A stretch of DNA of 64,000 bases from Sphaerochaeta sp. (GTDB taxonomy: Bacteria > Spirochaetota > Spirochaetia > Sphaerochaetales > Sphaerochaetaceae). Numbering within the stretch: the first letter of the stretch is position 1; every line of letters begins with the position of its first letter. The notes beneath the pieces were generated by a model that searched no databases, was not told where the DNA came from, and worked only from the letters and a program-made list of their open reading frames with translations. The translations under genes and the position numbers were made by a program. Positions 5,601 to 57,807 of the stretch are shown piece by piece. The DNA is taken from positions 186,001 to 250,000 of the forward strand of contig JAKVPA010000002.1 of NCBI GenBank assembly GCA_022482495.1, given 5' to 3'.

Positions 5601-6467
5601 ATGTTGTTGTTTGATGGAGAAACGCCACAACCCTCATTTTTTCAATTGTTGATGGATAATCTGGAAGGATGGGCCACGAAAGGATGGACTGCTTTTTTTG
5701 TGACACTCATTGGAGGTGCCGCCGGTGTTGTTGTTGTGCGGTTGCTCATCACATGGCTTTTGTACGTACTGAAGAAGGTGTTTGCCCGGAGCAAAGGTGT
5801 GAATGACTTGATGGCGCGGTTCATCTGCCAGATGATCAGCATTCTGGGATGGATTTTTTTGGTCGTCTGGTTCTTCAACCACATGGGCATCAACATGCGT
5901 CCTGTTCTTGCCGGTTTAGGAATCACCGGTGTCGTCCTTGGATTGGCGTTCCAGGAGACATTGGGGAATCTCCTTTCCGGGGTGATGATCATCATTAACG
6001 CGCCATTCAAGATTGGTGACTACATCGACAGTGGTTCTTTCAGCGGGACGGTCACCGACATGGATCTGATTTGCGTGACGCTTGTCACACCTGACAACCG
6101 GGACATCACTATCTCAAACAAGTTGGTCTGGGGAAGCCCGATCGTCAACTACTCCTCCATGGACAAACGTCGTGTCGACATGACGATCTCCATAGCCTAC
6201 GGTTCGGATATTCCACGGGTCAAGGAGTTGATCCGGCAAAAACTGGCTACCTATCCTGAAGTGCTTCCCAATCCCGCTCCGACGATCGAGGTCGCCGAAC
6301 TGGGGGATAGCGAGATGAATCTGGTGGTTCGTCCATGGACCAAGCCGGCGGATGTCTGGACGATCAAATGGCGGTTCCAGGGTGAATGGTACGATTATCT
6401 GACCAAAGCGGGAATTGACATTCCGTACAATCAGCTTGACGTACACGTCATCAACGACAAGGGCTGA
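5601..6467 (+). CDS. mscS: Small-conductance mechanosensitive channel (MscS family)
   Basis: This 288-residue inner-membrane channel opens on hypo-osmotic shock. I chose the ATG at 5601 because AAGGAAGG lies just upstream. A longer frame back to 5490 would run through the htpG terminator. Three membrane segments are visible (about residues 22-44, 60-85 and 95-120). The pore-lining TM3 signature LAFQETLGNLLSGVMIIINA and PFKIGDYI follow, then the beta domain and an alpha/beta C-terminal domain ending near the stop. Length matches E. coli MscS (286). It stands alone and is convergent with rlmE with no gap. Confidence 0.93.
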   Translation: MLLFDGETPQPSFFQLLMDNLEGWATKGWTAFFVTLIGGAAGVVVVRLLITWLLYVLKKVFARSKGVNDLMARFICQMISILGWIFLVVWFFNHMGINMRPVLAGLGITGVVLGLAFQETLGNLLSGVMIIINAPFKIGDYIDSGSFSGTVTDMDLICVTLVTPDNRDITISNKLVWGSPIVNYSSMDKRRVDMTISIAYGSDIPRVKELIRQKLATYPEVLPNPAPTIEVAELGDSEMNLVVRPWTKPADVWTIKWRFQGEWYDYLTKAGIDIPYNQLDVHVINDKG

Positions 6468-7072
6468 TCACTTCTTGTCCAGTCCGACCAGGTATATCTC
6501 GAACGAATCTTCCCGGCACGCTTCTGGCTTGAACGGTTTGACTTTGGCAAACCGCTGCCGCATCGTCCGGATGATCTCCACCTGGCCGCCGCCTGGAAGA
6601 TCTTCAGCACCAGATTGCCGTGCGGTCTGAGCTGCTCTTCAGAGAGCAGCACCACCTGCTCGGCGAGCCATTCGCTGCGGGAGGTATCCACCGAGCGGTT
6701 GCCGGTGGTCATCGGCGCCGCGTCGCTGATGATGGCGTCATACGGCCCCAGTTCCACCAGTTTCGCGCGGATCTCTTTGGAGAAGGCATCCCCGACAAAC
6801 GCCGTGACGATCGGTGGGATGGGGGAGATGGACAGCGGGTTCAGATCGACGCTGACCATGGAGCCTTCCCCTTTCAGGAGTTCCCTGCAGACGTACAGCG
6901 TCCAGGATCCCGGGGCCGCCCCCACATCCAGCACCTTGTCTCCCTTTTTGATCAACCGGAAGTTCTTCTGGATCTCCTCCAGTTTGTAGACGCTTCGGGC
7001 TGGGTATCCTTCCTTGTGGGCCCGTTGCGTGTAGCTGTCCGCCTTGTCTCTTCTGCTGTTGATGTTCGGCAT
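6468..7072 (-). CDS. rlmE: 23S rRNA 2'-O-ribose methyltransferase RlmE (FtsJ), frameshifted
   Basis: RlmE methylates U2552 of 23S rRNA using SAM. The start MPNINSRRDKADSYTQRAHK and the SAM motif VLDVGAAPGSWT (about residues 47-58) are present, as is SDAAPMTTGNRSVD. Near 6585-6595 one base appears to be missing. Restoring it continues the frame from KIFQ into GGGQVEIIRTMRQRF and the typical ending FEIYLVGLDKK, with stop TGA at 6468-6470. The corrected length is 201 residues, normal for the family. Without correction the frame runs to 6431 with nonsense sequence. The gene lies 10 bases after the oxidoreductase start region and the two may be co-transcribed. Confidence 0.9.
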
Positions 7073-8223: not shown

Positions 8224-9045
8224 ATGCAAACTCCGAAATTGATCTGTACCGACGTGGATGGCACGTTGGTCACCAAGGACTTCATCCTCCCCGAGACGAA
8301 CCGGTTGTGGATCCAGCGGGTCGTCCGGGAAAAACAGATACCTTTGGCCATCGTCTCCGGCCGCTTCCGGGCGAGCGCCCGGCCGGTGGCGGAACAACTG
8401 GGCGTACCGGTTGACCTGTGCTGTTTCAACGGCGCGTACGTCCAATCGGGGGATGAGGTGCTGTACGACAAACCCATCCCCGTTGAGCTGGTGCATCGGA
8501 TGCTCCCGGTCATCCGCAAGGAACAGATCGTCATCCAGCTGTTCGGGTTGGATGACTGGTACACCGAGGAAAACGATGGCTTTTGGTATGACAAGCAGGT
8601 GGTCATGTCCGGGAAGGAAGGAACCATAGGAAACCTGGATGATATTCTGGATCGGTGCGAACGGGAGGGAACGCCGATCTACAAGCTGACGCCCCGCAGC
8701 CTGGACACCCAAAAGGTCGGGCGCGTCATCGCGTCCCTCAAGGAGCGGATGGGGGACGACCTGGACGTGTTCCTCTCTTCCCCGTACATCATCGAGACGG
8801 CTCCCAAGGGAATGGACAAGGCGAACGTCATCCCGATCCTTGCCACCCATTACGCCATTTCCCCCCAAGAGGTCATGGCCTTCGGGGATTACGACAATGA
8901 TCTTGGTATGCTGAAGGCTTCCGGTTTTCCCGTGGCGATGGGAAACGCCCGGCCCGCATTGAAGGAGGTGGCCAGGCTGGTCACCGACGATGTCGCTCAA
9001 GGCGGCGTGGGGAACGCCATTCACAAGATATTCTTTGGGGAGTGA
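8224..9045 (+). CDS. Cof-type HAD-superfamily phosphatase
   Basis: This 273-residue cytosolic phosphatase probably acts on sugar phosphates or similar metabolites. HAD motif I is CTDVDGTLVTKD at residues 9-20. Motif II, SGR, is near residue 45, and motif IV is FGDYDNDLGML near residue 221. A C2-type cap lies in between, as in Cof/YidA proteins. It is monocistronic. Just after its stop lies the terminator hairpin of the minus-strand RNA A. Confidence 0.9.
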   Translation: MQTPKLICTDVDGTLVTKDFILPETNRLWIQRVVREKQIPLAIVSGRFRASARPVAEQLGVPVDLCCFNGAYVQSGDEVLYDKPIPVELVHRMLPVIRKEQIVIQLFGLDDWYTEENDGFWYDKQVVMSGKEGTIGNLDDILDRCEREGTPIYKLTPRSLDTQKVGRVIASLKERMGDDLDVFLSSPYIIETAPKGMDKANVIPILATHYAISPQEVMAFGDYDNDLGMLKASGFPVAMGNARPALKEVARLVTDDVAQGGVGNAIHKIFFGE

Positions 9046-9047
9046 GC

Positions 9048-9106
9048 AAAAAAGAGGCGCTGGCAGCTTGTTACATTGTGGGGTGGGGAGAGACGCTGCC
9101 AGCGCC
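9048..9106 (-). terminator. Terminator of small RNA A
   Basis: A perfect 12-bp inverted repeat (GGCGCTGGCAGC at 9056-9067 with its complement at 9095-9106) is followed on the minus strand by CTCTTTTTTG. On the plus strand the hairpin has no T run, so it is oriented for the minus strand. Confidence 0.75.
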
Positions 9107-9161
9107 AGAAAATCACATTCTAAAGGAGGTTAGATTGAAAAAAACAGAATTCTTTGCTCTA
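9049..9161 (-). ncRNA. Candidate sigma-54-dependent small RNA A (anti-Shine-Dalgarno type)
   Basis: The unit has a near-consensus sigma-54 promoter upstream (9172-9188). The predicted start is near 9161 and a strong terminator lies about 100 bases further on. The RNA would be about 113 nt. An unpaired central part contains CUAACCUCCUUUAG (9135 to 9121 region), close to the 16S rRNA 3' tail that binds Shine-Dalgarno sequences. The large terminator loop is C-rich (CUCUCCCCACCCCAC), another possible seed. No open reading frame fits the minus strand. Transcript ends are inferred, not measured. The upstream AGGAGGT at 9161-9167 could mask the anti-SD if transcription began slightly earlier. Confidence 0.6.
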
Positions 9162-9171
9162 CCTCCTATCA

Positions 9172-9188
9172 AGCAACTTCCGTGCCAA
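9172..9188 (-). promoter_or_regulatory. Sigma-54 promoter of small RNA A
   Basis: The minus strand reads TTGGCACGGAAGTTGCT, matching the known consensus YTGGCACGrNNNTTGCW at every specified base, with correct -24/-12 spacing. It has the same spacing as the three other sites at 9393, 53458 and 57848. Confidence 0.8.
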
Positions 9189-9250
9189 CTTAAAAAACAG
9201 GGGAAATCCCAGAGAAAACGGCGCGTTTTCTGAAAATCCTCGTTTTCAAG

Positions 9251-9287
9251 GTGTGCAAAAACGTAACAGTTTGCACGATTTGCACAC
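9251..9287. promoter_or_regulatory. Candidate enhancer (UAS) for small RNA A
   Basis: GTGTGCAAA (9251-9259) and TTTGCACAC (9279-9287) form a perfect 9-base inverted repeat, with an extra TTGCAC at 9271. The site lies 63-99 bases upstream of the -24 box, where sigma-54 activators bind. A related GTGTGCA...TGTGCAC pair is at 9447-9472 upstream of RNA B. The activator is unknown. Confidence 0.4.
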
Positions 9288-9297
9288 TGCATGGAGA

Positions 9298-9333
9298 CAA
9301 AAGAAAGGCGCCGTCCGACGGGGCGGCACCTTT
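9298..9333 (-). terminator. Terminator of small RNA B
   Basis: A stem of 12 pairs with one mismatch joins 9321-9333 and 9304-9316, with a 4-base loop. On the minus strand it is followed by CTTTTG and begins with AAA facing TTT. It is oriented for minus-strand transcription. Confidence 0.7.
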
Positions 9334-9382
9334 GCATGAAAAAGGAGGTTGTTGTATGAAAAAACGTTGTATTGTCCTGACA
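9298..9382 (-). ncRNA. Candidate sigma-54-dependent small RNA B (anti-Shine-Dalgarno type)
   Basis: This unit has the same architecture as RNA A: a consensus sigma-54 promoter (9393-9409), a predicted start near 9382 and a terminator at 9304-9333, giving about 85 nt. The region between start and terminator is A/U-rich. It contains ACAACAACCUCCUUUUUC (about 9355 to 9338), again an anti-Shine-Dalgarno sequence. RNAs A and B share little besides promoter and CCUCC core, so they look like diverged siblings. No minus-strand reading frame is present. Ten bases of B, CUCCUUUUUC, are complementary to the ribosome site of the xylose binding-protein gene (25260-25269). Confidence 0.6.
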
Positions 9383-9392
9383 CCATCTATCA

Positions 9393-9409
9393 TGCAATCG
9401 CCGTGCCAA
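9393..9409 (-). promoter_or_regulatory. Sigma-54 promoter of small RNA B
   Basis: The minus strand reads TTGGCACGGCGATTGCA, again matching every specified base of the sigma-54 consensus with exact spacing. No protein gene lies downstream on this strand until beyond the RNA terminators. Confidence 0.8.
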
Positions 9410-9446
9410 CTTTTTCGCTGAATTTTCACGAATTTGGGGCCGTCAG

Positions 9447-9472
9447 GTGTGCATCTCTGGCAATCTGTGCAC
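9447..9472. promoter_or_regulatory. Candidate enhancer (UAS) for small RNA B
   Basis: GTGTGCA (9447-9453) and TGTGCAC (9466-9472) repeat the half-sites seen upstream of RNA A, 38-63 bases before the -24 box. The TTTTTT after 9472 could instead make this a weak plus-strand terminator, but no plus-strand gene precedes it. Confidence 0.35.
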
Positions 9473-9530
9473 TTTTTTCACAATCGATCAATTCGGTTGA
9501 CCAATTGTCCGGAATCCCTACCTTGATGGC

Positions 9531-10187
9531 ATGAACTGGAGCCCCCAACGCAGGACCGTCCGGATGCGGACGTTGCCGTATGATTCCTGGAACGTCACCT
9601 GGAAACTTGTCCTGGTGAACGTCATCGTGTTTCTGATGACCTCCGTGTCGCCCAATCTGGGCGTGCGGCTTGCCATGGTCCCGTCGTTTATTCTCCAGGG
9701 ATGGGTTTGGGAATTCTTTACCTACATGTTCGTCCACAGTGGGGTGCAGCACATTTTCTGGAACATGTTCTCCCTGGTGATGTTCGGCATCCCGGTGGAG
9801 AACCAGCTGGGAAGCAGCGAGTTCCTGCTGGCATACCTGCTCACCGGAGTGTTCTCCGGGGTGGTGAGCTTTCTCTGTTATCTTGCCGCCGGCGTCAACG
9901 TGATGCTGGTCGGAGCCTCCGGCGCGATCTTCGGGGTCATGGTGCTGTTCGCCGTCTTCTATCCCCGCGCCCGGATCTTCATCTTTGGTTTGATCCCCAT
10001 CAAGGCGCCGTTGATGATCATCATCTACACGGCCATCGAGCTGTACAGCCAGTTGTTCGGCGCCGGTGGAAACGTCGCCCACATCACCCACCTTGCCGGC
10101 GCGCTGGGCGCGTTCCTGTACTGTCTGGTCAGGTTACGGATCAATCCGGTGAAAGTGTTCCGGTATTACCTGCACAACGATTACTGA
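9531..10187 (+). CDS. Rhomboid-family intramembrane serine protease
   Basis: This 218-residue membrane protease cleaves transmembrane substrates within the bilayer. About six hydrophobic segments are visible from residue 24 on. The catalytic serine lies in GASGAIFG (near residue 129) and the catalytic histidine in HITHLAGALGA (near residue 188). The conserved FVHSGVQHIFWNM region of the second segment is also present. The start is uncertain because the ATG at 9531 has no clear ribosome site, and an ATG at 9564 is an alternative. It overlaps the convergent add gene by 7 bases at the 3' end. Confidence 0.92.
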   Translation: MNWSPQRRTVRMRTLPYDSWNVTWKLVLVNVIVFLMTSVSPNLGVRLAMVPSFILQGWVWEFFTYMFVHSGVQHIFWNMFSLVMFGIPVENQLGSSEFLLAYLLTGVFSGVVSFLCYLAAGVNVMLVGASGAIFGVMVLFAVFYPRARIFIFGLIPIKAPLMIIIYTAIELYSQLFGAGGNVAHITHLAGALGAFLYCLVRLRINPVKVFRYYLHNDY

Positions 10188-12233: not shown

Positions 12234-13465
12234 GTACCTTGTAACATCAAAAAGTTAGAACAGGGTATAGCCTTTTGAGCTTTACCCTGGCTTCCTCGGC
12301 AGTGAACTGCCAATTCACACCCTTCTGATTCGCATTCCTCTGTCGATACCAATGCGAGAGTTCATTTCGCAGTGTTTCAAGATTCGGAATTCTTCGATTC
12401 CCCAGACATTGACGACCAAGTGCCGATAGCTCAATCTCGGCAATATCCAATCAGGAACCATGTTTCGGTGTGTAGTGAATCTCCAATCGCTGCGCCAGCT
12501 CAAAGGCTCTCTTCGGAGGGAATGTATCATATAACGATGAGATAGAATGGGTATTGAGATTATCCATGACCAAGACAACCTTCTCAGCATCCGGATACTG
12601 ATCATCCAGAAGCCATTCTATCTGTCTCGCCCAATCTGCTTTTGTTCTTCGTTCCTGAGCATCAGCATATCTCCATCCTGCTAAAGGTTCTGTGAACAGG
12701 AAAATGCAGGCGGTTCCATTTCGGATGTATTCGTTATCGTAATACTCTACCCCATGCTTCTTAAAGCGCTTTCGCAAATCAGCAAAGAATTGCACAGGCT
12801 TCTCATCCATACAGACCACTGGAAATTTCTCATCGTACGGACGAGCGTATACAGACAGGACATCTTCCATAGCCGCTACAAATGCAGCATTCTGTTTTGC
12901 AGGAATACACCAGCATTTCTTCAGGTGAGGCTTAAATTCGTTTTTTTTAACGTGCGATTGATTGTCATCGCAGATACAGACTCTATGAAGCCCAGTTCAA
13001 CACATTTGTCAGCAAGTAGTCGTACTGTCCAGCGACTATACCCTTCAGGAGGATCCGTACAGGCAAGAGCGATGATATGAGCCTCTACATCACCGGTCAC
13101 TTTCGCAGGCACAGGTGGCGTAGTGCGTTTTTTTCTCTCAATACAGGCCTCAAGACCATATGCGGCATATTCAGTGCGTACTTTTTGAACCGTAGTATTT
13201 GAAACATGAAAGGCAATTGATACTTCATCGACGGTCATAGGCTTCTTCCCGTTTCTGTCTGAGGCAAGGAGAATATTCGCTCTCATGATTGTACGAGCTG
13301 GAGAGGCCCCTTTTTTAACGATACCCTCCAGTTTTCTGCGATCTTTATCTGATAATTCAATCAAGTATTTTATCGACGGCATAGTGCACTTCCTCCTTAT
13401 GATACCACATAACGAAGTATAGTTCACTGAGGCCGTTTATACAATATTTAGATGTTACAAACTAC
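12234..13465 (-). mobile_element. IS630-type insertion sequence, 1232 bp
   Basis: Terminal inverted repeats are visible: GTACCTTGTAACATC at the left end (12234) and GTAGTTTGTAACATC on the opposite strand at the right end (13465), matching at 13 of 15 bases. The element is flanked by TA on both sides (12232-12233 and 13466-13467), the target duplication expected for IS630/Tc1 elements. It carries one transposase on the minus strand. Removing it rejoins the sequence as cagacc-TA-gcatgag. It sits between the ankyrin terminator and the Opp-type operon. Confidence 0.88.
12247..13382 (-). pseudogene. IS630-family transposase with -1 slippery site and an internal stop
   Basis: The start at 13382 (MPSIKYLIELSDKDRRKLEG) has AAGGAGG upstream. 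The first frame gives the helix-turn-helix half and stops at 12921. An eight-A run (12941-12948) allows a -1 shift from LKK into [14 protein letters not shown], the expected junction in this family. The DDE half then follows with CMDEKP and [11 protein letters not shown]. At 12451-12453 a TGA replaces the conserved Trp of YTPKHGSW, after which the frame continues open (LDIAEIELSALGRQCLGNRR) to 12247. The frameshift is probably programmed. The TGA probably inactivates the protein. Confidence 0.88.
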
Positions 13466-52777: not shown

Positions 52778-53431
52778 TTATTTCTCCTGTTGTTGTTTCC
52801 GTTTCAGTTCCGCAAGCTGCGCGTCGATCTCGTCGGCTTCCTCCAGATCGGAGAACGCCTTCTCCGTATCATGGGCGTGGGATTGTCCGTTCAGATCGTT
52901 CATCGCCTGCATCCGGTCGATCCGTTCCTCCATCGTGGTGAAGTGGTCCATCGGATCCTTGTGCATCGTCTCCTGGGCACGGGCCCGTTCGGCTTCCTGT
53001 TTTTGCTTTTCGGTAAGGATCTTGTATTTCTTCTTCACCTCGGCGAGCTTCTCTTCCAGTTGGGATATCTCGTTCTGGCTGTCTTTGATCAGACTGTCGT
53101 AGTTGGCGATCTCCTCATTGATCCGCTCCTCTTGGGCGACGCACCGTTTCTTTTCCACCAGCGCCTCGCGGGCAAGATCGTCACGAGCCTTGGATACGGC
53201 AAGTTCCGCCCGGCTCTGCCAACGGTTCACCGCCGCCTGGACATCGGAGCGCTGCCGATCCAACCGGGTGCGGCTGGCCATCTTGTCAGCGCAGTTGCTC
53301 TTGATCTCGATCAGCGTGTCCTCCATCTCCTGGATCATCATCCGGAGCATCTTCTGGGGATCCTCCGCACGATCGAGCAGGCTGTTGATGTTGGCGTTCA
53401 CGATATCAAGGAATCTTGAAAATACTCCCAT
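52778..53431 (-). CDS. pspA: Phage-shock protein A
   Basis: This 217-residue peripheral membrane protein of the ESCRT-III/Vipp1 superfamily coats and repairs damaged inner membrane and can restrain PspF. It starts at 53431 (MGVFSRFLDIVNANINSLLD), with AAGGAGT upstream. The amphipathic N-terminal helix is followed by RAEDPQKMLRMMIQEMEDTL and a long coiled coil to about residue 190. A sigma-54 promoter lies directly upstream, and pspF is divergent, exactly as in enterobacteria. Confidence 0.95.
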   Translation of the reverse strand: MGVFSRFLDIVNANINSLLDRAEDPQKMLRMMIQEMEDTLIEIKSNCADKMASRTRLDRQRSDVQAAVNRWQSRAELAVSKARDDLAREALVEKKRCVAQEERINEEIANYDSLIKDSQNEISQLEEKLAEVKKKYKILTEKQKQEAERARAQETMHKDPMDHFTTMEERIDRMQAMNDLNGQSHAHDTEKAFSDLEEADEIDAQLAELKRKQQQEK

Positions 53432-53457
53432 GGTTGCTACTCCTTCATCCATCATAC

Positions 53458-53474
53458 AGCAAGAACTGTGCCAA
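53458..53474 (-). promoter_or_regulatory. Sigma-54 promoter of the pspA operon
   Basis: The minus strand reads TTGGCACAGTTCTTGCT, one base from full consensus, with exact -24/-12 spacing. The predicted start near 53447 leaves a 16-base leader with AAGGAG. Three copies of CGGTTTT (53476, 53486 and 53497) lie directly upstream and may be activator contacts. Confidence 0.85.
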
Positions 53475-53539
53475 GCGGTTTTCACCGGTTTTTCATCGGT
53501 TTTCGGGGCAGGAGATTGGTGTTCTTTGCCATGTGATGG

Positions 53540-53554: not shown

Positions 53555-54529
53555 ATGGAAGAGATGCAGACCCAGAGCCCGTTAGGGGAAAGCGAAGTGT
53601 TCCTGGATTTCCAGGCGAAACTGTCATTGGCCGCCAAGATGAACCGGAGCGTGCTGTTGGTGGGGGAGCGGGGGACCGGCAAGGAGATCGCCGCCCGTCG
53701 TCTCCACTACCTTTCCCCCCGGTGGCAGAAGAACCTGGTGACGATCAACTGCGCCGCCCTTCCCCCGTCGTTGATCGAAACGGAGTTGTTCGGCTACGAG
53801 CAGGGTGCGTTCACCGGAGCCCAGAAGACCCGCAAGGGGCGGTTCGAGGAGGCGGAAGGAGGGACACTGTTTTTGGATGAGATCGGCCTGATCCCTCTGG
53901 AAGTGCAGGAGAAGATCCTCCGGGTGGTGGAATACGGGACGTTCGAGCGGGTCGGCTCGTCGGTGACCCATACCTGTGATGTGCGGATCATCGGCGCCAC
54001 CAATGCCGATCTCCCCCAGCTGTGCAAGGAAGGAAAGTTCAAGGAAGATCTGCTGGACCGCCTGAGCTTCGAGGTGTTGTTCCTTCCCCCGCTTCGGGAA
54101 CGGGGGGATGACATCCTGCTGCTGGCCAATTTCTTCGCCGGAAAGATGGCGATGGAGTGCGGAAGGGATGATATCCCCGTCTTCTCCGACGAGGTGAAGG
54201 CACAGCTTCGTGCCTATCCCTGGCCTGGCAATGTGCGGGAGCTGAAGAACGTGGTGGAGCGGGCCGTCTACAAGCAGGATAGCCCGGTGATCGACCGTCT
54301 GGAGTTCCATCCGTTCACCAATCCGTACGAGAAACCGCAGGAATCGGAACAATCCGCTCCATTGGACTTGATGAACTATGAACAAGCAAAGCAGGAATTT
54401 GATATACTGTATCTGAAAAGAGCCCTGGAAGAGGGGCGGGGAAACCAAAAACGGGCTGCGGAATTGCTCGGCCTGACCTACGACCAGTTCCGTGGGTTGT
54501 ACCGCAAGTACAAGGAGGCGCTTGGATGA
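53555..54529 (+). CDS. pspF: PspF-type sigma-54 transcription activator
   Basis: This 324-residue AAA+ enhancer-binding protein has no N-terminal sensory domain, as in PspF. Walker A is GERGTGKE near residue 29, the sigma-54-contacting loop is EQGAFTGA near residue 78 and Walker B is GGTLFLDEIG near residue 99. The arginine-finger region follows. The C-terminal Fis-type helix-turn-helix is GNQKRAAELLGLTYDQFRGL. It is divergent from pspA, whose sigma-54 promoter it should activate, and the second pspA operon is a probable further target. Its stop overlaps the ogt start. Confidence 0.93.
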   Translation: MEEMQTQSPLGESEVFLDFQAKLSLAAKMNRSVLLVGERGTGKEIAARRLHYLSPRWQKNLVTINCAALPPSLIETELFGYEQGAFTGAQKTRKGRFEEAEGGTLFLDEIGLIPLEVQEKILRVVEYGTFERVGSSVTHTCDVRIIGATNADLPQLCKEGKFKEDLLDRLSFEVLFLPPLRERGDDILLLANFFAGKMAMECGRDDIPVFSDEVKAQLRAYPWPGNVRELKNVVERAVYKQDSPVIDRLEFHPFTNPYEKPQESEQSAPLDLMNYEQAKQEFDILYLKRALEEGRGNQKRAAELLGLTYDQFRGLYRKYKEALG

Positions 54530-56966: not shown

Positions 56967-57149
56967 TCACGATGGGGTGATGGCCACCCCCAACACGTAC
57001 AGCAACGCCGCCGGGATGAAGCCGATGCGGCATGCCACCACCACGGCGATGATCCTGAGGATCCAGGCGTTGATGCCTGTTTTCCGGGAAAGCGTGGCGA
57101 ACAGGCCAAGCAGCACCGGGGCGGTGGGGGACCGGTACTCACTTCGCAT
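56967..57149 (-). CDS. Short PspC-like membrane protein
   Basis: This 60-residue protein matches the core of a PspC domain: SPTAPVLLGLFATLSRKTGI followed by WILRIIAVVVACRIGFIPAA, a hydrophobic segment and a turn. It lacks the cytosolic tail of the PspC encoded at 52070. Its ATG overlaps the end of the second pspA by 11 bases, and it is the only other gene of that operon. It could be truncated, but the reading frame is clean. Confidence 0.75.
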   Translation of the reverse strand: MRSEYRSPTAPVLLGLFATLSRKTGINAWILRIIAVVVACRIGFIPAALLYVLGVAITPS

Positions 57150-57807
57150 GGGTTTTATCCTTCAGCGCCTTCAGTTGCGCCTCGATGTCCGAGTCCTGTT
57201 CCATCTTGGCGAAGGTCTCATCGGTGGAGACGGTCCCCGATGGAGAACGGGACAGGTTGGCTTCAGCTTCCATCCGCTCGATCTTGGTCTCCAGATCCCG
57301 GAAATGGCGCATGATGTCCACTGACTCGCTCTTCTTCAGGACGGATTCCACCGTCTGCTTCTGGCGGGCGCTTTTGGCCCGTTCCACCAACGTGGCCTGT
57401 TTCCCTTTCACTTCTTCCAGCTTGTCATGGATTTCCGTAACCTGGGTCTCTTCCTTGGCGATGATTTCCGTCAACGCGGCGAGATGGATTTCCACCCGTT
57501 TGACCTGTTCGGTGGCGGTGCGTTTCTCGATCAAGGCTTCACGGGCCAGGTCATCACGGTTCTGCCCGACGGCCATTGACGCCCGTTCCTCCCACCGGCT
57601 GGCCGCGGCGGCGAATTCCAGTTTCTCCCGCTCCAACGTCTTCTTCTCCGCCTTGTGGTCGGCCAGGGACGCGCGGGCTTTGTCCAACGTCTCCTCCAGC
57701 TGGGTGATCATCAGGTTGATCATCTTCTGCGGGTCTTCCCATTTGTCCAATGCGCTGTTGAGATTGGCGCTCATAATGTCACTCATTCGTTTCCATACGT
57801 TGCTCAT
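57139..57807 (-). CDS. Second PspA-family protein
   Basis: This 222-residue PspA/Vipp1-family coiled-coil protein starts MSNVWKRMSDIMSANLNSAL and continues DKWEDPQKMINLMITQLEET, aligning throughout with the PspA encoded at 52778. The two have clearly diverged, and this one has a Ser/Thr-rich C-terminal linker (SPSGTVSTDETFAKME). An AAGGAG ribosome site and a sigma-54 promoter lie upstream. The pairing with a short PspC suggests a second envelope-stress module rather than a redundant copy. Confidence 0.93.
   Translation of the reverse strand: MSNVWKRMSDIMSANLNSALDKWEDPQKMINLMITQLEETLDKARASLADHKAEKKTLEREKLEFAAAASRWEERASMAVGQNRDDLAREALIEKRTATEQVKRVEIHLAALTEIIAKEETQVTEIHDKLEEVKGKQATLVERAKSARQKQTVESVLKKSESVDIMRHFRDLETKIERMEAEANLSRSPSGTVSTDETFAKMEQDSDIEAQLKALKDKTHAK

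Follow-up and report, generated by a model that had tools for sequence, protein, structure and literature searches.

A Sphaerochaetaceae family of candidate sigma-54-dependent small RNAs with predicted pairing to the translation starts of exported-protein genes

What purpose could be served by two successive DNA units that each have a promoter and a terminator of their own? The question is raised by positions 9046-9482 on the minus strand of the window (the whole 64,000-nucleotide stretch of Sphaerochaeta DNA analysed here), where two complete units, each composed of a sigma-54 promoter, a predicted RNA of ~84-115 nt containing ACCUCCUU and a terminator, are flanked by a HAD hydrolase gene (8224-9045, plus strand) and a rhomboid gene (9531-10187, plus strand). 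A first-pass annotation had described full-consensus sigma-54 promoters and terminators that serve no protein gene, and this description stands: both promoter elements are exact, hairpins with a T run are present, and each unit ends in its own terminator. The features of the locus, including the anti-Shine-Dalgarno (anti-SD) cores, are these:

9466-9482, minus strand: enhancer-like palindrome TGTGAAAAAAGTGCACA upstream of unit B, of the same palindrome class as in relatives
9394-9408, minus strand: sigma-54 promoter (-24/-12) of unit B, TGGCACGGCGATTGC, exact TGGCAC-N5-TTGC
9299-9382, minus strand: unit B, predicted small RNA of ~84 nt, 'short' type, the upstream copy; its start is placed by the -12 element and its end by the terminator
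9356-9364, minus strand: UUUUUUCAU of unit B, complementary to AUGAAAAAA by sequence
9339-9350, minus strand: AACCUCCUUUUU, the anti-SD core of unit B, with the same sequence as the core of the 16S tail
9304-9333, minus strand: terminator hairpin of unit B, then a T-rich run (sequence and folding)
9252-9286, minus strand: enhancer-like inverted repeat TGTGCAAA...TTTTTGCACA upstream of unit A, of the same palindrome class as in relatives
9173-9187, minus strand: sigma-54 promoter of unit A, TGGCACGGAAGTTGC, exact TGGCAC-N5-TTGC
9047-9161, minus strand: unit A, predicted small RNA of ~115 nt, 'long' type; covariance model match 9155-9047, E 6.7e-7 genome-wide
9135-9144, minus strand: UUUUUUUCAA of unit A, complementary to UUGAAAAAAA/UGAAAAAAA by sequence
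9122-9131, minus strand: AACCUCCUUU, the anti-SD core of unit A, unchanged throughout the family alignment
9056-9106, minus strand: terminator stem-loop of unit A, with a covarying stem and a loop, UCUCUCCCCACCCCA (9079-9093), whose sequence is conserved among long-type units
6431-7072, minus strand: rlmE/ftsJ 23S rRNA methyltransferase gene, syntenic neighbour (PF01728)
9531-10187, plus strand: rhomboid-family membrane protein gene, divergent syntenic neighbour (PF01694)

The predicted start sites (~9382 for unit B, ~9161 for unit A) follow from the usual spacing between a sigma-54 promoter and its start; since the predicted +1 of unit A coincides with or follows the AGGAGGT, this motif is probably absent from the RNA. 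Both units fold better than shuffled sequences (z -4.3 for unit A, -2.6 for unit B) because of their terminators. Taken alone, unit B is a weak match to the covariance model (E 0.32); its tandem position and its parts match those of relatives. The 64-kb window has three exact sigma-54 elements and the 2.25-Mb genome has eight, against four for a reversed-pattern control, and so the promoters by themselves are not decisive; it is conservation that settles the units as predicted genes.

Similar DNA was found by BLAST in 27 of 100 relatives, 25 of them belonging to the same family, and most of the places found share the same architecture, with one to four tandem copies. A covariance model built from 11 copies matched 33 of 393 Spirochaetota genomes, of which 32 are Sphaerochaetaceae, and provided no secure member elsewhere in the phylum. 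Inside Sphaerochaetaceae it matched 106 of 124 genomes, representing 16 of 22 genera, again with one to four tandem copies, while diverged copies that the model missed were found by DNA similarity in genus-mates (L015 and L018). A search for a sigma-54 element followed after 25-55 nt by ACCTCCTT gave matches in 32 of 36 sampled family genomes and in 2 of 357 other Spirochaetota, with none for the reversed control; the two outside matches are without the conserved block and were rejected. None of 4227 Rfam families matched the window or the loci of five relatives at the curated gathering score, a relaxed threshold gave chance matches only, and no report of small RNAs in Sphaerochaeta was found in the openly licensed literature. 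Loss of the promoter, the CCUCC core or the terminator in relatives had been named beforehand as grounds for abandoning these units; all are kept. The units are therefore best described, from these comparisons, as paralogous members of a small RNA gene family specific to Sphaerochaetaceae.

Two types occur in the family, often in tandem: a long type, represented by unit A, with ACAGAGCAACAG-U6-7-CAUACCUCCUUUAGUGUGAUUU and a terminator with a CUCUCCCACCCC loop, and a short type, represented by unit B, with ACAGAGCAAACAG-U6-CAACAAACCUCCUUUUUAG and a plain terminator. The locus is also syntenic, in the order rlmE, units, rhomboid, adenosine deaminase, ankyrin protein and proS, parts of which are missing at some loci; the units mostly lie between rlmE and the rhomboid gene, and rlmE adjoins them in most genera examined. 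In a genome of another family (G390; L239, C4:54500-55500) there is a weak covariance match (E 0.0047) with a similar CCTCCTTTT and without a sigma-54 element, where two adjacent terminators have C-rich loops, one of them after CATAAACCTCCTTTTATG; this is possibly a distant or convergent anti-SD RNA.

A sigma-54 element lies directly upstream of 73 of 76 distinct family copies, the conserved RNA block begins 11-17 nt past the -12 C, which is the predicted 5' end, and rpoN was found in 121 of 124 Sphaerochaetaceae genomes. Upstream of 41 of 73 family promoters there is a site of the type TGTGnAAn3TTnCACA, where shuffles would lead us to expect 0.2, and the pair TGTG.A...T.CACA often forms a 17-bp palindrome (TGTGCAATTTTTGCACA). 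It sits where the site of an enhancer-binding protein is expected, and we regard it as a putative site of that kind. The exact palindrome was sought in six genomes; in two it is present at the small RNA locus only, in the other four it is found nowhere, and no additional regulon genes emerged from the six. Non-coding RNAs transcribed from a sigma-54 promoter with an enhancer-binding protein, often in several copies, include Qrr1-5, GlmY/GlmZ, CrcZ/CrcY and Pxr, and the ingredients of this mode of control, that is a -24/-12 promoter, rpoN and an upstream enhancer-like site, are all present here at the level of sequence. Those RNAs, however, are proteobacterial or myxobacterial and have other seeds and modes of action, and we know of no sigma-54-driven small RNA with an anti-SD core resembling the 16S tail.

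Four enhancer-binding proteins are encoded in this genome; a fifth, weak match is a ClpB-like ATPase by its sequence and was discarded. The window also contains two PspA-like genes (52778-53485 and 57139-57807, both minus strand) with sigma-54 elements at 53473-53459 and 57863-57849, one exact, the other with a single mismatch, and a gene for a PspF-like enhancer-binding protein (53555-54529, plus strand) divergent from the first, which together probably represent a Psp system in a spirochaete. No such palindrome was seen in front of the two pspA promoters, so there is no obvious case for PspF as activator of the units, nor support for placing them in a Psp-type stress regulon. Other sigma-54 promoters were noted in passing. 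One of consensus form lies ~50 nt before a sigma-70-family factor gene (L129:13255; G000 C10:43256), with a histidine kinase/NtrC-type regulator pair 3 kb away (L129:7387-10082), an arrangement that is reminiscent, by analogy, of the Borrelia Rrp2-RpoN-RpoS cascade; in a related genus another directly precedes an Hsp20-like gene, as judged by eye (L022:1416; L038:1530, minus strand). Also by eye, two adjacent open reading frames in the window (12451-13427, minus strand) resemble pieces of an IS630-like transposase.

The structure of the RNAs is clearest at the terminator, where all ten modelled pairs of the stem change on both sides in relatives and 97% of cells are paired; the alignment was fitted to the structure, which favours pairing, and slid and shuffled controls were far lower. 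With an unfitted alignment RNAalifold recovered the terminator alone. A hairpin with the CCUCC core in its loop can be folded in many long-type units, with an extended form in some genera, but its stability does not exceed that obtained with shuffled flanks (mean z -0.01). The first-pass annotation had proposed an unpaired stretch like the 16S tail; the likeness is in fact an identity, while the unpaired state of the core, as far as folding models can indicate, is plausible only. In some genera the U run is able to pair with a downstream A run. The terminator loop of long-type units, CUCUCCCCACCCC (for example window 9079-9093), shows strong conservation, an unusual trait in a terminator; as a second seed it does not perform, its complementarity to mRNA starts being no better than that of shuffles.

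The 16S tail in this genome is GGATCACCTCCTTTCT, and the core, ACCUCCUUU, equals the 16S tail of these genomes, so that the mimicry is literal; as expected of an anti-SD riboregulator, the core is complementary to the SD and has the sequence of the host 16S tail. The core does not stand alone. In all 73 units examined there is a U run of five to eight followed by CA, and the spacer between UUUUUUCA and CCUCC is 0-11 nt. When reverse complemented, the conserved 5' half reads AAAGGAGGU-(AUG)-AAAAAAACUGUUGCUCUGU, that is, an SD, a start codon, Lys-Lys and hydrophobic codons. Core, neighbouring UUUUUUCA(U) and 5' AGAGCAACAG are thus, as read from the sequence, jointly antisense to an SD, AUG-AAA-AAA and hydrophobic codons, which is the start of a signal-peptide gene. 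In many long-type units the perfect complement would place GGAGG just 1-2 nt from the AUG, so the two pairing blocks need an mRNA bulge between them.

Whether such gene starts are preferred was evaluated in 400-kb samples from four genera, using a simple ORF finder and a simple rule for signal-peptide-like starts, both crude, and duplex energies, computed for the conserved 5' part against every gene start (-30 to +30), that ignore folding and accessibility of either RNA. Signal-peptide genes pair better than the rest, and 0 of 40 shuffled RNAs matched the separation for each RNA in the four genera; in one of them (G048) signal-peptide genes make up 60% of the 30 best targets, against 16 +/- 7% with shuffles. 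Stretches at +120 of the same genes, which served as a control, show no pairing preference. Solute-binding protein (SBP)-like genes are the best class in all four genera, with medians of -21 to -24 kcal/mol against -14 to -17 kcal/mol for non-exported genes, although the difference between SBPs and other exported proteins is strong in G048 only (P 0.0002; P 0.05-0.10 in the other three genera). Ten of the best exported targets, picked by hand as likely SBPs, were all confirmed as such by Pfam (10 of 10; SBP families 1, 3, 5, 7 and 8 and periplasmic-binding families), a result that bears on their identity and is not an unbiased measure of enrichment. The motif AGGAGG-N3-10-ATGAAAAAA occurs at eight places in this genome besides unit B, and six of the eight encode SBP-like exported proteins by sequence. 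Example duplexes have energies of -31 to -36 kcal/mol, that of unit B with the SBP-like gene at C2:96914 being -36.2 kcal/mol.

In the reading that we favour, with a probability of roughly two in three, the units would be trans-acting, sigma-54-switched and Hfq-independent riboregulators that block the starts of exported-protein mRNAs, chiefly those of SBPs, and so lower nutrient uptake. An enhancer-binding protein at TGTGnAA/TTnCACA sites would activate sigma-54 RNA polymerase, and two or more short RNAs would be made, each ending at its own terminator. Their 5' half (AGAGCAACAG-UUUUUUCA(U)-ACCUCCUUU) would pair with the translation starts of exported-protein mRNAs, with the anti-SD core on the SD, UUUUUUCAU on AUG-AAA-AAA and the 5' end on hydrophobic signal-peptide codons, and ribosome binding would be blocked on mRNAs for ABC, TRAP and sugar SBPs. 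In this way a single sigma-54 signal would lower the uptake of nutrients, or the load of exported proteins, and would do so independently of Hfq (PF17209), which was found in none of the 81 Sphaerochaetaceae genomes that are at least 90% complete; the length of the pairing may account for there being no need of it. As a speculation, copies with different UUUUUUCA-CCUCC spacers may suit differing distances between SD and AUG. Transcription, repression and the signal are steps that we infer from the sequence.

The earlier suggestion, that these are anti-SD repressors of strong-SD mRNAs in general, survives in the anti-SD core and is altered by the rest of the pairing region, which also covers AUG-AAA-AAA and hydrophobic codons and has exported proteins, above all SBPs, as its predicted targets. 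In its simplest form it would hold that the ACCUCCUU core alone binds all strong-SD mRNAs, with broad repression as the outcome, while the U run and 5' block provide stability or structure. The core is indeed the most invariant part and equals the 16S tail, it already favours exported genes somewhat when taken alone, and in three of four comparisons the SDs of exported genes are stronger or GGAGG is more frequent among them. Signal-peptide genes as a class share an SD and ATGAAAAAA, and because an SD with AAAAAA is common to exported genes, part of the predicted preference would follow from any anti-SD RNA with a U run. Yet with the core left out, the U run and 5' block still tell exported genes from the rest, and none of 40 shuffles does so as well in any of the four genera. 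The invariant 5' 12-mer also strengthens the pairing of the best exported targets: when it was shuffled and the U run kept, the best signal-peptide targets weakened, and in three genera 0, 2 and 1 shuffles out of 100 equalled the real sequence. The contribution of the 12-mer is modest and lies mainly in the best targets, the overall separation not being raised in two of the three genera. On balance we consider purely general anti-SD action unlikely.

A very improbable explanation would have the RNAs directed at a protein or the ribosome, core and C-rich terminator loop acting as a decoy for a protein of cold-shock or KH type or for another RNA; it would give a reason for the conservation of UCUCUCCCCACCCCA in the long type, where complementarity to mRNA starts is at chance level, but the short type lacks the loop and keeps the 5' half, and the preference for exported genes would have to be accidental. 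A role of the units in cis, as a leader or attenuator that puts rlmE behind a sigma-54 promoter, is suggested by several genera in which the last unit is directly upstream of rlmE on the same strand. We hold this to be a remote prospect, as every unit ends in its own strong terminator, rlmE in the window is 2 kb away with a convergent gene between, no rlmE follows the units in L123, and a leader would have no use for as many as four repeated units. Remoter still is a small MKK... peptide with a strong SD encoded on the plus strand, of which the supposed small RNA is merely the antisense. The reverse complement does read like an SD, ATG and signal-peptide codons, but a start codon at a usable distance is missing from 56 of 73 units, the variation of the U run from five to eight shifts the frame, half of the units have CAA or CAC for CAU, and promoter and terminator are on the opposite strand; a reading frame is not kept, and the conservation pattern contradicts this reading.

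The riboregulators that we propose have analogues in several unrelated bacteria. Small RNAs with C-rich loops (RsaE/RoxS, csRNAs, sX13 and CcsR) use a CCUCC/UCCC-type motif presented in hairpin loops against the SD; here, a hairpin around the core is unsupported, and the flanking antisense to AUG-AAA-AAA is additional. GcvB of enterobacteria is one small RNA with an unstructured region that represses many ABC-transporter binding-protein mRNAs around the ribosome-binding site (RBS), and the many binding-protein mRNAs predicted to be hit at the RBS by the units are a point of likeness, whereas GcvB has a GU-rich seed, depends on Hfq and is encoded by a GcvA-controlled sigma-70 gene. The AbcR1/AbcR2 pair of Rhizobiales (alpha-r15) consists of tandem, homologous small RNAs of ~115-120 nt whose anti-SD motifs act on the RBS of the SBP mRNAs livK and prbA; they are Hfq-bound and have sigma-70 promoters, AbcR1 being under LysR-type control (PMC8844928, PMC3712013). 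A comparable pairing of an anti-SD motif with SBP mRNA starts is predicted here in four genera and, in difference from AbcR, would extend over the AUG and signal-peptide codons. The units have sigma-54 promoters and are confined to one spirochaete family; Hfq association of the AbcR kind has no counterpart in the 81 family genomes, and the Rfam search, a scan of all 4227 models whether or not AbcR is among them, gave no sign of homology to alpha-r15. NfeR1 (alpha-r14) is likewise a stress-induced small RNA of ~115 nt with repeated anti-SD motifs and periplasmic-binding-protein targets, and is not Hfq-bound (PMC8844928, PMC10746234), but it has three anti-SD motifs in one RNA, and promoter, sequence and phylum differ. 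With no Rfam match, no Hfq, sigma-54 in place of sigma-70/LysR control and a different phylum, the units are, on the evidence of sequence, not members of the AbcR/NfeR1 kind.

This study describes a conserved family of predicted regulatory RNAs in Sphaerochaetaceae that is absent from Rfam and undescribed within the openly licensed literature searched. Discussion of RpoN in this phylum mostly concerns host adaptation; the family adds a predicted link between sigma-54 and the control of nutrient uptake, and the resemblance of its predicted logic to that of AbcR, NfeR1 and GcvB in unrelated bacteria suggests convergence. A bolder formulation, to which we would give somewhat less than even odds, is that one sigma-54-switched, Hfq-independent RNA recognises proteins by their destination, its pairing tuned to the shared start of signal-peptide genes, and throttles the export-bound proteome, chiefly nutrient-binding proteins, family-wide. 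The idea offered here is that a small RNA may select exported proteins through the codons common to signal peptides.
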